This document shows, piece by piece, positions 7,095-36,574 of a stretch of 39,855 nucleotides of DNA. The stretch covers positions 1 through 39,855 of IMG/VR virus record IMGVR_UViG_3300028490_000015; one strand, given 5' to 3'. The position numbers were made by a program, and so were the translations under genes. The number at the start of each line of letters is the position of its first letter. Position 1 is the first letter of the stretch. The stretch is from a virus. The notes beneath the pieces were generated by a model. The model made no database searches, was not told the origin of the DNA, and saw nothing but the letters and a program-made list of their open reading frames with translations.

Positions 7095-9113
7095 TTAATG
7101 GGCCCAATAGTCTCCTATTACAGCGTCTGCTTTTAATGGTACGTCTTTACACCAGATTGCTCCGGCCTCAACCATAGCTTCTTCTAATGCTACTGCAGCA
7201 ATTGAAGCTAAATCTTCTACAACTTCCACATTGATCTCGTCATGGATGATATTTGTTATAAAACATATATCCTCATACTCGTTATCATATATCCATTGTC
7301 TAAATTTAATAGCTGCACTCTTAGTGACATCTCCAGCTGTACCTTGTACCGGATAGTTTAATGCTAATCTACCTATTGCTCCTTTAATAGTTTCATAGGC
7401 TTTCTTTTTAGATGGAATCTTTTTGTATGCCATCATCTTATCATAATCCTTTAATTCGAATGTACGGTTACTGACCTCATTAACGAGGATATAGCCACGT
7501 TTAAGAGTTTCTGCTATGACTTTATCAAAGTATTGTTTAAGTGCAGGAAACGCTTTAAAATAGGCCTCATATACGATGTCACCCTCTTCTACCTCTACTC
7601 CTAGATTCATTGCAATAGTAAACCCTGTTCCACCATAGTTAATGGCAAATCCAGCTGCTTTTGCAACACCTCTCTCACTTAATAATTCCTTCTCAAATGC
7701 ATTAAGCTTGCCTCCGCCATCTTTCTTGGCTTTAGCTTTAAGATACTCCTCATAGACCTTCTTATAAAGATGGGATGCAACGAAACTGTGCATATCTCCT
7801 CCTTCCATTATCAACTTCACCATGTTAGGCTCCATTGATTTATTAGCTAGAATAACTGTCTCCTGACCACTGTAATCTGCGTTCACTATTTTATACCCGA
7901 TCGGGGCTGTGAAACACTCTCGATACCTTGGATCTGATGGTATATTCTGTAAATTAGGTGCACTACTACTCATACGACCCGTATTAATGATCTGATTGTA
8001 ACTACTATGTAGTCTACCAGTCACTGGGTTGACATGCTTAAAGAACTTGATACCAAAGGTTGTAACTCTTTGCTCATATTCTTTAAATGCAATATACTCC
8101 TTTATAAACTGCTTATGCAATGGATCAGCTTCTTTATTAGTTGTTAATAAGGATACTTTCAATACTTTAGCCTCTACAGTGTAAGCCATCTTCTTGGTTG
8201 TCTTACTCTTAGCCTTAGGACATACCCCTAATGATCTAAATAGTGAGATAACTTGCTTTGGACTCGACCAGCTTATAGACACTTTTTGAGATGTGTCAAA
8301 CATATCAGCTTGCTTCTCTATAAACTCAGTGATATTGTTATTGAATATAAAATCATTAAGCGGTTGCTTCCTAACTTCATACTCTAACAGGTTAAGGGTA
8401 TACAAATGTTCCCACTTACTTTTATCAAAGAATAATCCTCGATACTCCATATCACCTAATACTTTAACCATTTGATGCTCTAAATCAACTAATCTTTGCT
8501 TTTCTCTTGCTTTTATCTCAATCTCTTGCTTAGCATTAATTAGCATTGGTAAAATAACATCATAGGCACCATATATAATTTCGTCCTTAGAAAACTTCTT
8601 ATCACCTATCTCTAGGAAGCGCATACGAATAGTCTTATCCGCCTCATAGTTCAAGTAACGCTTTGCTAGGGCCTTTAAACTGTATGAATTGTATAATCCA
8701 TTGTACAGGCATTTCTCTTGAATCAAAGTATCTTTAATCTTATCTAGTAATATACCATGGTTATGGCGTAAGAACTTGTATTCAAACTTTAGATTCTGAC
8801 CTATAATAGTCCTACCCTCTAAATAAGGGATAATTCCGGTTATGTCAACCACTCTTGTGTCAATTACAAACTGACGGAATTGATCTCCAAATTGGAACAT
8901 TATGAGCTCATGTTGGTGAGGGTCTAATCCTCTTGTCTCAATATCTACTGCAATCTCTGTTTGATTATACTTCAACCATTCAATAGCTTTGCTTAGTCCT
9001 CTTTGGTAATCTATAAATGTTACGTTTAACTCTATTCCATTACTCTCCTCTACATCATCTAACGTAAAAGTTGTCTGCCTTTTAACATCAAACTCTAAAC
9101 TAGTCTGACTCAT
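7095..9113 (-). CDS. Family A DNA polymerase with 3'-5' exonuclease
   Basis: 672 residues. Exonuclease motifs: ExoI DIET (Asp57, Glu59), ExoII NLKFEY (about 106-112) and ExoIII YGAYD (181-185). Polymerase motifs: TGR and NLQNIP (378-392), motif A NADYSGQE (Asp413), motif B with Arg481, Lys485 and Tyr493, and motif C HDE (624-626). No 5'-3' nuclease domain is present. Motif A reads DYSGQE instead of the common DYSQIE, a modest deviation. This is the main replicative polymerase of the phage. Family A polymerases occur in several crAss-like lineages. Confidence 0.95.
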   Translation of the reverse strand: MSQTSLEFDVKRQTTFTLDDVEESNGIELNVTFIDYQRGLSKAIEWLKYNQTEIAVDIETRGLDPHQHELIMFQFGDQFRQFVIDTRVVDITGIIPYLEGRTIIGQNLKFEYKFLRHNHGILLDKIKDTLIQEKCLYNGLYNSYSLKALAKRYLNYEADKTIRMRFLEIGDKKFSKDEIIYGAYDVILPMLINAKQEIEIKAREKQRLVDLEHQMVKVLGDMEYRGLFFDKSKWEHLYTLNLLEYEVRKQPLNDFIFNNNITEFIEKQADMFDTSQKVSISWSSPKQVISLFRSLGVCPKAKSKTTKKMAYTVEAKVLKVSLLTTNKEADPLHKQFIKEYIAFKEYEQRVTTFGIKFFKHVNPVTGRLHSSYNQIINTGRMSSSAPNLQNIPSDPRYRECFTAPIGYKIVNADYSGQETVILANKSMEPNMVKLIMEGGDMHSFVASHLYKKVYEEYLKAKAKKDGGGKLNAFEKELLSERGVAKAAGFAINYGGTGFTIAMNLGVEVEEGDIVYEAYFKAFPALKQYFDKVIAETLKRGYILVNEVSNRTFELKDYDKMMAYKKIPSKKKAYETIKGAIGRLALNYPVQGTAGDVTKSAAIKFRQWIYDNEYEDICFITNIIHDEINVEVVEDLASIAAVALEEAMVEAGAIWCKDVPLKADAVIGDYWAH

Positions 9114-11051: not shown

Positions 11052-11059
11052 TTATATTG

Positions 11060-11188
11060 TGCGTGGAGCAGGACTCGAACCTGCAAGACCTAGTGCCATA
11101 TATCTAGGATGGCACATCAACGGCCAGGGCTCTTAACCCCAAGGACATCTTCAAACGATATTGTGTATACCAATTCCACCATCCACGC
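11060..11188 (-). tRNA. Leu-type tRNA-like gene with ~45-base insertion in the anticodon loop
   Basis: Acceptor GCGTGGA/TCCACGC (7/7), a D-loop region GTGGAATTGGTATACAC close to bacterial leucine tRNAs, A73, and T arm GCAGG-TTCGAGT-CCTGC. The anticodon stem ATATC (11157-11161) pairs perfectly with GATAT (11100-11104), which is followed by a 15-base class II variable arm. The 52 bases between them should be seven. The insert contains GTTTGAA and GGTTAAGA loops and a GTGCCAT/ATGGCAC stem. The final anticodon is undetermined; TAA in the insert would suit leucine. Confidence 0.6.
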
Positions 11189-11269: not shown

Positions 11270-11365
11270 ATGTAGAAGCCGGACTCGAACCGGCGCTTCC
11301 CCTGGAAACGAGGTGTAAGACGGGACTTACGAAGTCCCCGCTCTATCCAGCTGAGCTATTCTACA
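11270..11365 (-). tRNA. tRNA-like gene, anticodon CGT (Thr by position), extra 27-base variable region
   Basis: Acceptor TGTAGAA/TTCTACA (7/7), D stem GCTC/GAGC, anticodon arm GGGAC-TTCGTAA-GTCCC, T arm GCCGG-TTCGAGT-CCGGC. CGT would read ACG (Thr). The variable region has 27 bases in place of about 5 and folds as CTT-ACA-CCTC/GGGG-AAG around a second anticodon-like loop (GTTTCCA). Threonine tRNAs are not class II, so the extra hairpin is unusual. Confidence 0.65.
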
Positions 11366-11616: not shown

Positions 11617-11647
11617 TTTATATAATTTAATTGTTAATATTCTGTTT

Positions 11648-11691
11648 AAAAAATGCACCTCTCCGTTCAATATCCTTCGGAGGAGAGGTGC
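11648..11691 (-). terminator. Strong intrinsic terminator after the permuted tRNA
   Basis: A perfect 10-bp stem, GCACCTCTCC (655-664) with GGAGAGGTGC (682-691), is followed on the minus strand by ATTTTTT. It closes the transcript carrying the permuted tRNA. Confidence 0.75.
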
Positions 11692-11740
11692 TTCTGATGT
11701 GTGTATAGCTTTCAGGGAACTGAAGCTAAGGCTGTTTATA

Positions 11741-11868
11741 AACGAGTGAGGTTGCCGCTTCTCTAATGGGCCGTATACGTAGTTTCCTCGTACATACTGT
11801 GTAACTACAAAACCGCTCCTATGTTTATGGAGGCCCATCCCGGATTCGAACCGGGGATCTCTCGTGTC
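11741..11868 (-). tRNA. Circularly permuted tRNA gene (3' half precedes 5' half)
   Basis: Read on the minus strand, the order is: anticodon stem 3' strand ACGAG (11865-11861), variable AGATC, T arm CCCGG-TTCGAAT-CCGGG, 3' acceptor ATGGGCC (11838-11832), T73 and encoded CCA, a 55-base spacer, 5' acceptor GGCCCAT (11772-11766), TA, D arm GAG-AAGCGGCAAC-CTC, and anticodon stem 5' strand CTCGT (11746-11742). Acceptor 7/7 and anticodon stem 5/5 pair perfectly across the permutation. Flanks also pair (GTATAGC/GCTATAC and GTTTA/TAAAC). The joined loop is uncertain; several joints give TTATGAC (anticodon ATG). Confidence 0.8.
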
Positions 11869-11989
11869 ATATATAGTTAAACCTGGCTATACCACTGATA
11901 ATACTAATGCTTAAGCTATGACTCAACAAAAAAGCTAATTACCTAGAATGGGTAATGCTAATGTTCATGCTAAAGCTATTAGTCAATTG

Positions 11990-12772
11990 TTACTGGCCGT
12001 CAAAAATGTAGCCAAATATCTTATCTCCTGTTAAATTAGATGGAATTGCCTCTACGTTATTACACACTTTAAGAGCCTCTAAGACACCTATTGATAATGC
12101 ATGCTTACGTCTGGCTGCCTCAGCTCTTTTACGCTGTGTCCATTGCCCTGAGAACCTCTGATGAGTATAATCACCTAATACTACAGTAGTTGTTTTCTGT
12201 GCAACAACTGCATTGTAATTAGGAGAGTCTTCACTCACATTAGGGTCTTTAAGGATGTAATCCTCTTTAACAGTAGTGTTGTTTGTTCCTTCTTGTAATG
12301 GGCTTTCATATACACCTCGTCCGGCATATAGCTCACTCTCTGATTTATCCCACTCTTCCGCATCACTACGAACCGGGATTGCTGCAATAACTTGACCAAT
12401 ACCTGAGTTCTCAAGTAATGATTTAAGTCTTAGCAATTCTAAAGATGAGTAATCACCCCATGATTTACCCTCTACGATCAACTCAGCACGTGCAATACCT
12501 GCTGCATTAGTTGCTTCTTGAGAGAATAAAGCATCAATGTACTCCTTAGTTGATTCAATGAACCAATTAATCTTCTCTTTCACTGTTGTTTGTATGATGA
12601 TGTTACCTCTCATTCGTGGTTCATCAACTGTACCTTCTTTAGGTGAGTATGTTCTCTTCTCTCCTAAGAAAGCTCCTTGATTCTTAGTGAAGAATCTACC
12701 ATAATCTTGAATTCCTGCTTTAAAGGCTTTACCTAAAGCATCTGTTACTGCTAATAATACGTTTAATTTCAT
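11990..12772 (-). CDS. Conserved-looking phage protein of unknown function
   Basis: 260 residues. It begins MKLNVLLAVTDALGKAF and has an N-terminal helical part, then a polar middle (residues 145-200) and a basic C-terminal part with QRKRAEAARRKHAL. No catalytic motif is recognisable. Its composition is that of a soluble globular protein. It sits alone between the permuted tRNA transcript and a 55-residue gene. Confidence 0.65.
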   Translation of the reverse strand: MKLNVLLAVTDALGKAFKAGIQDYGRFFTKNQGAFLGEKRTYSPKEGTVDEPRMRGNIIIQTTVKEKINWFIESTKEYIDALFSQEATNAAGIARAELIVEGKSWGDYSSLELLRLKSLLENSGIGQVIAAIPVRSDAEEWDKSESELYAGRGVYESPLQEGTNNTTVKEDYILKDPNVSEDSPNYNAVVAQKTTTVVLGDYTHQRFSGQWTQRKRAEAARRKHALSIGVLEALKVCNNVEAIPSNLTGDKIFGYIFDGQ

Positions 12773-14447: not shown

Positions 14448-14551
14448 CAGTACAGGCAGGATTCGAACCGGCTCAATGCTGTTTACTGTAAGCGTAAGAG
14501 CATGTCTACACACTCCCATGAGTGCAGCTCTACCGTTTGAGCTACTGTACT
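14448..14551 (-). tRNA. tRNA-like gene with two extra hairpins in the anticodon domain
   Basis: Acceptor AGTACAG/CTGTACT (7/7), D stem GCTC/GAGC with GG in the loop, T arm GCCGG-TTCGAAT-CCTGC (4/5). Between D and T arms are 54 bases. A first hairpin GCACT-CATGGG-AGTGT (no T33) directly follows base 26. A second has stem ATGCT/AGCAT around an 18-base loop that itself folds as TTAC-GCTTACA-GTAA. If the second is the anticodon arm, TAC (Val) stands at 34-36. If the first is, the second is a giant variable arm. Confidence 0.55.
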
Positions 14552-14556
14552 ATTTG

Positions 14557-14659
14557 TAATGCAGGTTGGACTCGAACCAACGCAATTCTTGCGGGAAGTG
14601 CAGAGAATCCTGTAACGAGGCGTCTCTGGCCCCCGCTCTACCAACTGAGCTACTGCATA
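14557..14659 (-). tRNA. tRNA-like gene with two extra hairpins in the anticodon domain
   Basis: Acceptor TATGCAG/CTGCATT (6/7), D stem GCTC/GAGC, T arm GTTGG-TTCGAGT-CCAAC. After base 26 comes GGGGC-CAGAGAC-GCCTC (GAG at 34-36 but A33). A second hairpin follows, ATTCT/AGAAT around a 14-base loop containing TGC/GCA. The plan (hairpin 1, linker, AT-N-CT/AG-N-AT hairpin, 3-base joint, T arm) matches its neighbour at 14448-14551, so the two share an origin or a function. Confidence 0.55.
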
Positions 14660-28399: not shown

Positions 28400-28860
28400 G
28401 AATAGCAAAGATAAACACAAGCCTTAGTCACTTCTTTTACCACTGGGTTGAATTTATCGAGCCTTTTCATAAGCTAGGGAAAACAGAGAAGAAGGTTCTT
28501 GCAGAACTATTGTACCATAGATACCTTCTGAGTCAGGAAGTAACGTCAGAACACCTATTAAATAAGCTAGTGTTCGAGTCTGAAGTAAGACAAGCGATAT
28601 GTGATTCAATTGGTATACCTAGAGTACGCCTGGGGTTAGTACTTTCTCAGTTTAGAAAGGCTAAGATATTAGATGGTAAGAAGTTAAATAAGCATTTCAT
28701 ACCTGATATCAAGTTAGGCGATAAAGAGTTTGTACTGGCTTTTAAATTTAAAATAGAAGGGAATGAAGAAGGTATCTATTCGAAAGCGATTCGAGGAAAA
28801 ACTAAGGGAAATAGCAATAGCAGAAGGAGTAGAGGTAAAGGAAGTAAGGGAAGTATTTAG
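28396..28860 (+). CDS. Hypothetical protein, small terminase-like position
   Basis: 154 residues with a helical middle that could be helix-turn-helix (residues 60-100) and a very basic, Gly/Ser/Arg-rich tail. DNA binding is plausible, and the position upstream of TerL would suit a small terminase, but no family match is visible. Its last 98 bases overlap the next gene in another frame. Confidence 0.5.
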   Translation: MRIAKINTSLSHFFYHWVEFIEPFHKLGKTEKKVLAELLYHRYLLSQEVTSEHLLNKLVFESEVRQAICDSIGIPRVRLGLVLSQFRKAKILDGKKLNKHFIPDIKLGDKEFVLAFKFKIEGNEEGIYSKAIRGKTKGNSNSRRSRGKGSKGSI

Positions 28861-29053
28861 ATCCCAGTTCAAGTTTACTAAAGAGAAGATAGAAGCTATT
28901 GATAAGAAGTGGCTGGCAAAGGCCGCAGTAGCAGAGATTAATAAAATAGTATTCAACTATATATATATAGGTAAGGTCCATTCAGGAAATAGACTACAAG
29001 AATACGCTAACAAGAGAAATAAATTAAACGAGGAGAGTAATGAAAACAATTAA
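28763..29053 (+). CDS. Hypothetical basic helical protein
   Basis: 96 residues, mostly charged helix (Lys/Glu/Arg). It shares 98 bases with the end of the gene before in a different frame. No later ATG is available, so the overlap appears real. Function unknown. Confidence 0.5.
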   Translation: MKKVSIRKRFEEKLREIAIAEGVEVKEVREVFRSQFKFTKEKIEAIDKKWLAKAAVAEINKIVFNYIYIGKVHSGNRLQEYANKRNKLNEESNENN

Positions 29054-35416: not shown

Positions 35417-36574
35417 ATGCCAGATTTGGGAGAGGTAGGTATAGATCTAAGTTTTGAAGACTTAGAATTTATAGACGAATTAAATGAAGCAGAGGGAACT
35501 AACCCTAACGAAGAGAGTACAGAAGGAGAAAGTGAAGCGAGCACTGAAAGTGCAGCCACTGAAGGATCTGAAGAAAGTGAACAAGAAGCCTCGCAAGAGG
35601 TTGAAAATAATGACGATACCACTGAGGGCGAAAGCTCAGAGAGCGTAAGTGGTGATTCTACTGAAGGAGATGCGGAACAGCAGACCTCTCCCCAGTTGTA
35701 CGAATCATTGGCCTCAGTTCTCGCAGAGAAAGGAGTACTAACCTCAGTAGATGAGTCGTCTTTAAAAGGTATAAAGGATGTAGATGCACTAGTAGAACTT
35801 GTGAAGAAAGAAATCAAAGCGCAAGAATACAATGATCTTACAGACACACAAAAAACCATCCTAACCGGCATCAGAGAAGGAGCAGCAGAAACTACTGTTA
35901 CTAAGTTCAAAGATGCAATGTCAAAGTTAGATGCTATAGATGATAACCTAATTAACTCCGATGAGAATGTTCAGAAGGATTTAATATACCAAAGCTACCT
36001 CTCTAAGGGGTATGCGAAGGACAAGGCTGCATCTTTAGTTGATAGGAGTATCAAACTAGGGTTAACTCTAGAAGACGCTAAGGAGGCTTATACTGACCTT
36101 AAAGGGGTAGTTAAGACTCGATACGAGACAGAGTTAGAGAAGGAAAAGACTTTAGCAAAAGAGGATGCTAAGACAGAAGCCAAAGATAAAGCCGCTTTAG
36201 AGAAATCAATGCTCGAAAGTAAGGAGGTTATCAAAGGTATTGAAGTACCAGAGAATACGAGAAAAGAAGTGTACGCGGAAATGATGAATCATGTATCAAT
36301 CAATCCAGTCACTAAAGAACCGGAAAACTCATTAATGAAGTTCCAACGAGAGAACCCAACAGAGTTCACACAGAAATTATATTACTTATGGAAAATGAGT
36401 AATGGCTTTGAGAACTTGGATTATTTTAAAGGAAAGAGTGGTACCTCAAGCGTTAAAGCATTGGAAAACGCTATAAAGAATTCTACGCATATTCAGGGTG
36501 GTGGTGATCCATCTTACAGTGACGACGTTAACGCATCAATGCTTAACATAGAAGACATTGTATTCCCGGATTAA
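35417..36574 (+). CDS. Putative scaffolding protein
   Basis: 385 residues. Residues 1-100 are extremely acidic and Ser/Thr-rich (EGESEASTESAATEGSEES-like), followed by long charged helices (130-290). Acidity, helix content and position between portal and capsid genes fit an internal scaffold. It lies six bases after the portal stop. Confidence 0.65.
   Translation: MPDLGEVGIDLSFEDLEFIDELNEAEGTNPNEESTEGESEASTESAATEGSEESEQEASQEVENNDDTTEGESSESVSGDSTEGDAEQQTSPQLYESLASVLAEKGVLTSVDESSLKGIKDVDALVELVKKEIKAQEYNDLTDTQKTILTGIREGAAETTVTKFKDAMSKLDAIDDNLINSDENVQKDLIYQSYLSKGYAKDKAASLVDRSIKLGLTLEDAKEAYTDLKGVVKTRYETELEKEKTLAKEDAKTEAKDKAALEKSMLESKEVIKGIEVPENTRKEVYAEMMNHVSINPVTKEPENSLMKFQRENPTEFTQKLYYLWKMSNGFENLDYFKGKSGTSSVKALENAIKNSTHIQGGGDPSYSDDVNASMLNIEDIVFPD

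Follow-up and report, generated by a model that had tools for sequence, protein, structure and literature searches.

A conserved RNA with a circularly permuted tRNA shape in crAss-like phages and Lak megaphages

Introduction

Circularly permuted tRNA folds are known from tRNA genes of algae and archaea, from two-piece tmRNA, and from the tRNA mimic YrlA. In the algal and archaeal genes the 3' half is encoded before the 5' half, and some of the known junctions lie at the anticodon (PMC3978253). Permuted two-piece tmRNA occurs in alpha, beta, and cyanobacterial types and also in phage Melnitz (PMC9004378); its 3' tRNA half is encoded first, it has a removable spacer, and its tRNA-like head is carried on a non-tRNA body. 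YrlA, a bacterial Y RNA (RF02553), mimics tRNA: its long basal stem bears a T arm, an acceptor hairpin, and a D arm in permuted order. A further permuted tmRNA, from jakobid mitochondria and without an mRNA-like region, is cited in PMC10085705.

The phage RNA family described here has the permuted topology and fits neither the algal and archaeal tRNA genes, nor two-piece tmRNA, nor YrlA. Its starting point is an IMG/VR record of 39,855 nt (IMGVR_UViG_3300028490_000015), analyzed at its full length and referred to here as the window, in which a sequence-only reading had proposed a circularly permuted tRNA gene on the minus strand at 11868-11741. Below we describe the fold, its conservation, and the larger RNA in which it is embedded, and we weigh what the product may do.

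Genomic context

The capsid, portal, and terminase of the window match crAss-like PHROG families, and the capsid shares 53% identity with that of Cellulophaga phage phi14:2, a member of the Crassvirales. Approximately 24 ordinary tRNAs share the window with the permuted locus. The protein encoded upstream of the locus (DUF7873, Table 1) has a confidently predicted fold; structure and PDB searches gave no convincing structural match and no clue to its function, and none was found when DUF7873 was sought in genome contigs.

Some of the other tRNAs are unusual in their own right. A Leu-type tRNA at 11059-11156 (minus strand) has an extra hairpin in its variable region (loop ATCCTAGAYAT), with counterparts in the relatives L003 (9455-9582) and L019 (3914-4055), and the anticodon loops of these Leu-type tRNAs are odd, being read as TTG or TTA. 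Hairpins of about 20 to 30 nt, whose recurring loop resembles CG(C/T)T..CAG, are inserted in the variable or anticodon region of ordinary-type tRNAs at 11270-11365, 14557-14659, and 14448-14551 (all minus strand). In the relative L020, about 120 nt are inserted in a Leu-like tRNA (8796-9008), and this insertion includes CGAAAGGATATTG, which closely resembles the motif of the permuted RNA's terminal hairpin.

A permuted cloverleaf maintained by selection

The minus strand from 11868 to 11741 contains a complete tRNA fold in permuted order, with the T arm followed by the 7-bp acceptor, the D arm, and the 5-bp anticodon-side stem (Table 1). Every position of the acceptor (7/7), T stem (5/5), and anticodon-side stem (5/5) is paired, the D stem has 3 bp, and the hallmarks of tRNA are present in the T loop TTCGAAT, U8-A14, G15-C48, G18-G19, and A21. 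The joining segments are short: AGATC stands between ACGAG (11865-11861) and the T arm (11855-11839), TA precedes the D arm after the acceptor 5' strand, and a single A separates the D arm from CTCGT. The acceptor, T arm, anticodon-side stem, T73-CCA, and 55-nt spacer were all described in the sequence-only reading and are confirmed on the letters.

Neither ARAGORN nor Rfam at its gathering cut-off reported a linear tRNA at the window locus, Rfam at that cut-off found no known family at the member loci, and a permissive Rfam scan of window positions 11640-12000 gave no match. No linear copy was found; a linear tRNA elsewhere containing either half had been named as a finding that would speak against a permuted gene. 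A strict detector of permuted cloverleaves, applied to 0.98 Mb of sequence, hit only the window locus and two relatives. The cloverleaf is not always the minimum free energy structure in single-sequence folding.

Conservation of the fold was assessed in an alignment of ten sequences, assembled through searches for the permuted fold and for DUF7873. Pairing holds in 99.3% of the cells of the acceptor, T, and D stems, versus 69.8% in shuffles and 31% to 49% in controls with slid partners. Double changes occur in 11 of the 15 pairs and amount to 38 double-changed cells, which none of 500 shuffles equaled. For the acceptor, whose covariation in relatives had been proposed as a check, all 7 pairs form in every member, and double changes are extensive over the acceptor, T, and D stems taken together. 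G1-C72, G2-C71, U73, and the encoded C74 are invariant across members, and position 15-48 is G15-C48 in most of them and T15-A48 in L078 and L079. A dead tRNA rearranged through tandem duplication, which easily makes a permuted order, or a chance match was weighed as an alternative. Because pairing is kept at this level together with double changes, we conclude from the alignment that the permuted fold is neither chance nor decay, and that account retains almost no probability. The proposal of a permuted tRNA fold in a phage has therefore held up, with covariation showing selection on it.

Table 1. Coordinates of the permuted RNA, its conserved elements, and the adjacent gene in the window.
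Feature	Position	Strand	Evidence or remark
DUF7873 (PF25283) protein gene, 260 aa	11990..12772	-	Pfam E 3e-40; directly upstream of RNA
Helix A, 5' strand GACT	11981..11984	-	pairs with AGTC 11923-11920
First AGCNTN hexamer-periodic segment	11957..11977	-	AGCNTNA count
5'-domain hairpin, CTAG in loop	11938..11956	-	sequence comparison
Helix A, 3' strand AGTC, conserved GTTG before it	11920..11923	-	sequence comparison
Second AGCNTN segment AGCTTAAGCATT, linker to basal helix	11906..11917	-	sequence comparison
Basal helix, 5' strand GTATAGC-CAGG	11882..11892	-	pairs with 11703-11716
Anticodon-side stem, 3' strand ACGAG	11861..11865	-	49/50 cells pair, ten members
T arm CCCGG-TTCGAAT-CCGGG, loop TTCGAAT	11839..11855	-	100% of cells paired; double changes in 4/5 pairs
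Acceptor 3' strand ATGGGCC (11838-11832), T73 (11831), CCA (11830-11828)	11828..11838	-	7/7 pairs, every member
Spacer separating acceptor strands, 55 nt after CCA	11773..11827	-	length varies among relatives
Acceptor 5' strand GGCCCAT, predicted RNase P site at 5' end	11766..11772	-	G1, G2 invariant
D arm GAG-loop-CTC, loop with G18-G19	11748..11763	-	96.7% of cells paired
Anticodon-side stem, 5' strand CTCGT	11742..11746	-	pairing across ten members
Internal segment TTATAAACAGCCTTAGC..., third AGCNTN cluster, at anticodon-loop place	11717..11741	-	AGC invariant in alignment
Basal helix, 3' strand CCTG-AAA-GCTATAC	11703..11716	-	3-nt AAN bulge 11710-11712
Terminal hairpin, loop GAAGGATATTGA, then T run (terminator and conserved loop)	11655..11691	-	loop comparison

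Distribution in crAss-like and Lak phages

Relatives were sought from the upstream DUF7873 protein, and further contigs were obtained. The permuted fold adjoins the 3' end of DUF7873 in L003, L019, L020, L070, L071, L074, L075, L078, and L079, with one small ORF separating the two in L078; L073 is a near copy of L070. Comparison with related phages, as the sequence-only reading had suggested, thus finds the permuted fold at ten distinct loci, nearly all directly downstream of DUF7873, and in addition in Lak. A covariance model built from the tRNA-like domain (R1) scores 57 to 67 bits in complete Lak genomes, where the copies lie away from DUF7873, and BLAST places the RNA, unannotated, in 15/15 published Lak megaphage genomes. 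The published account of Lak tRNAs (PMC8346664) relied on tRNAscan-SE and makes no mention of tmRNA.

R1 scores in six reference crAss-like genomes stayed at or below 34 bits, a value that tandem-tRNA artefacts also reach; most matches under about 50 bits come from ordinary tRNAs in tandem, read over a boundary. R1 did not retrieve L075, a true member whose spacer measures 244 nt, as a member of the family, and no further one emerged when viral and genome contigs were pattern-scanned with the RNA's 3' half. A second permuted tRNA-like candidate (L222; acceptor 7/7, T73) lies at 28816-28914 in the record of L078 (G011), in the leader of another gene and without the other features of the family. 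A literature search that covered mainly open-access journal papers found no phage RNA of this type described, and a conserved phage RNA of about 300 bases with a permuted tRNA shape is apparently undescribed so far.

Conserved elements outside the cloverleaf

The tRNA-like domain is part of a larger RNA whose other conserved parts are a 5' domain, a basal helix, 3 to 8 copies of AGCNTNA, and a terminal hairpin. In the 5' domain, which was compared largely by eye, helix A appears to covary, with GACC/GGTC in L019, ACCT/AGGT in L070 and L071, and GACTC/GAGTC in L079. The window RNA contains 7 copies of AGCNTNA versus 0.45 expected, and the copies found in every member, versus about 0.4 expected, fall into three clusters. 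Conserved pairing between the first and third AGCNTN segments was considered and rejected, the covariation seen by eye being unconvincing.

Two flank pairings had been suggested at this locus. GTATAGC/GCTATAC is real and conserved and forms part of the basal helix, whose 3' strand has the 3-nt AAN bulge in 10/10 members and whose upper four pairs are formed in 40/40 cells across the ten (0/20,000 permutations match this). GTTTA/TAAAC was not observed among the relatives inspected. The strong terminator reported downstream corresponds to a terminator-like hairpin at 11691-11655, which has a conserved loop in addition: the records of the window, L003, L019, and L020 each contain GAAGGATATTGA a single time, and the downstream hairpin of relatives carries this loop or a variant of it.

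Is the product a decoding tRNA?

If the locus were a true permuted tRNA gene, the precursor would be cut and ligated on the anticodon side and then opened at the acceptor to give a decoding tRNA. The retention of all tRNA arms and tertiary positions and the mature look of the acceptor end are consistent with this, and Lak and two other records carry RNA ligase family genes, with RtcB present in one record; RNA ligases are widespread among large phages, so that this support is weak. Against this reading, no common anticodon was found across the members compared, and none resulted from any joining of the halves that was examined; a closed 7-nt anticodon loop is absent across members. The anticodon-side helix extends past 5 bp in L070, L071, and L078, and its strands run into other helices or into ATAAAY-AGC. 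Unlike algal and archaeal permuted tRNAs, the phage RNA lacks a terminal bulge-helix-bulge, since no such motif of the archaeal type is conserved at its ends and the single 3-nt bulge lies in a basal helix of variable length, and it is surrounded by large conserved parts that are not tRNA.

Because there is no shared anticodon and the stem continues beyond 5 bp in these three members, decoding is unlikely, and the RNA probably acts as a tRNA look-alike instead. We accordingly rate a ligated, decoding tRNA as an unlikely product. The sequence-only reading went further than the comparison allows in taking the locus for a tRNA gene whose transcript is circularized, and the new splicing system that it called for is unsupported; maturation of the acceptor by ordinary tRNA enzymes would need none.

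Relationship to tmRNA and Y RNA

The likeness to permuted two-piece tmRNA outlined above raises the possibility of a strongly diverged tmRNA that still tags stalled proteins. Both follow a permuted, probably two-piece logic, phage examples of two-piece tmRNA exist (PMC9004378), Lak genomes have an SmpB gene (E about 1e-55), and the 5' domain holds, by eye, an AGC-frame stretch of Ser and hydrophobic residues. That frame lacks a start in both L019 and L020, though, and its hexamer pattern appears in three separate parts of the RNA. In contrast to tmRNA, which has A73, G3-U70, and a D loop without a D stem, the phage RNA has U73 in all members, a pair 3-70 that is never G-U, and a canonical D stem. 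It also differs from permuted two-piece tmRNA in apparently having no shared tag frame and in carrying its extra sequence mostly 5' of the 3' half, and Rfam tmRNA models at the member loci matched T-arm fragments only. The record of L075 (G008) contains, alongside the permuted RNA, a conventional tmRNA at 35724-36093 (L243) with the tag GKNNVSFAITSYRVAA, from which it follows that the permuted RNA is a different RNA; a separate tmRNA is probably present in Lak as well. A tagging role is, on balance, unlikely. The jakobid mitochondrial permuted tmRNA, compared here through its citation in PMC10085705, is likewise permuted and tRNA-like and may lack a tag, and it comes from different organisms.

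In Lak genomes MK250016, MK250024, and MK250029 (L228-L230, L240-L242), SmpB is accompanied by a divergent tmRNA candidate that scores over the Rfam cut-off, and the two could possibly form a phage trans-translation kit. As a candidate partner of the permuted RNA, SmpB was found in Lak only, and it fails to identify the partner because Lak has this tmRNA candidate and the L075 record a clear tmRNA.

The phage RNA shares the topology of YrlA; in a YrlA-type scaffold the acceptor would stay a closed hairpin, the domain would mimic tRNA, and the basal stem would tether a Ro60/Rsr ring protein. The best match to the YrlA model RF02553, in L020, covers the T arm, acceptor, and D arm and is weak (19.8 bits, E 0.21, with a gathering threshold of 69). 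No TROVE (Ro60/Rsr) protein was found in three complete Lak genomes or in ten record fragments, although most contigs are fragments in which a missing gene says little, and a host protein could serve. Unlike YrlA, the phage RNA has a long and variable spacer (15 to 244 nt) and a conserved, tRNA-like U73-C74 end, both of which suggest an open acceptor end, and we regard a Y-RNA scaffold as unlikely. A permuted hairpin ribozyme or group I intron was also considered and set aside, Rfam support being absent at the member loci. As judged from these sequence comparisons, the permuted phage RNA fits neither tmRNA, YrlA, nor the algal and archaeal permuted tRNAs.

Proposed maturation and possible function

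The spacers that follow N73 measure 58, 71, 18, 16, 15, 61, 19, 244, 21, and 17 nt in the ten members. The unusually long one, in L075, itself looks folded (GGAAGGAG...CTCCTTCC). C74 is encoded in 12/12 permuted sequences and is mostly followed by AA or TA; in ordinary tRNAs of the same phages C74 is present in 98/102, with CAA and CTA the commonest ends. Because the two patterns agree, the 3' end of the permuted RNA appears to be under real tRNA 3'-end rules, and a tRNA-like 3' end in turn argues for removal of the spacer. Since the ordinary tRNAs of these phages that have U73 are for the most part Gly and Thr tRNAs, which carry C2-G71, and Cys tRNAs, which carry G1, the nearest match for a charging identity would be Cys-like.

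In the maturation that we propose, RNase P would cut before G1, and 3' enzymes would trim to N73 and add CCA, so that the spacer is lost. This would leave a nicked RNA of two pieces held together by the 7-bp acceptor, the anticodon-side stem, and the basal helix and bearing a free, tRNA-like U73-CCA end. The product is probably such an acceptor-matured RNA; alternatively, the spacer might be left uncut. During infection, the tRNA-like domain would bring to the RNA body factors that bind tRNA, namely a synthetase and possibly EF-Tu or enzymes of tRNA processing. We give a probability of about 0.6 to this explanation taken as a whole, that is, to a phage noncoding RNA of approximately 250 to 340 nt with a complete permuted tRNA-like domain as its core, to the proposed maturation and recruitment, and to a working mode most like that of permuted two-piece tmRNA, with a tRNA-like head and a functional body, in what is nevertheless a separate RNA.

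Conclusions

Standard tRNA finders and Rfam miss an RNA that is common to 15/15 Lak megaphage records and also present in crAss-like phages. More tentatively, and at somewhat less than even odds, it may belong to a new phage RNA class, separate from both tmRNA and Y RNA, as an aminoacylated tRNA mimic that is permuted and made of two pieces. The phages would use it to act on host translation or tRNA handling, with its body (the AGCNTN repeats, bulged basal helix, and terminal loop) as a platform for binding protein or RNA. The family offers a defined test bed for whether the product is a two-piece RNA or a ligated tRNA, and whether it is charged and with which amino acid. Given the many tRNAs in these phages and the SmpB of Lak, the permuted RNA bears on how large phages manipulate the translation of their hosts.
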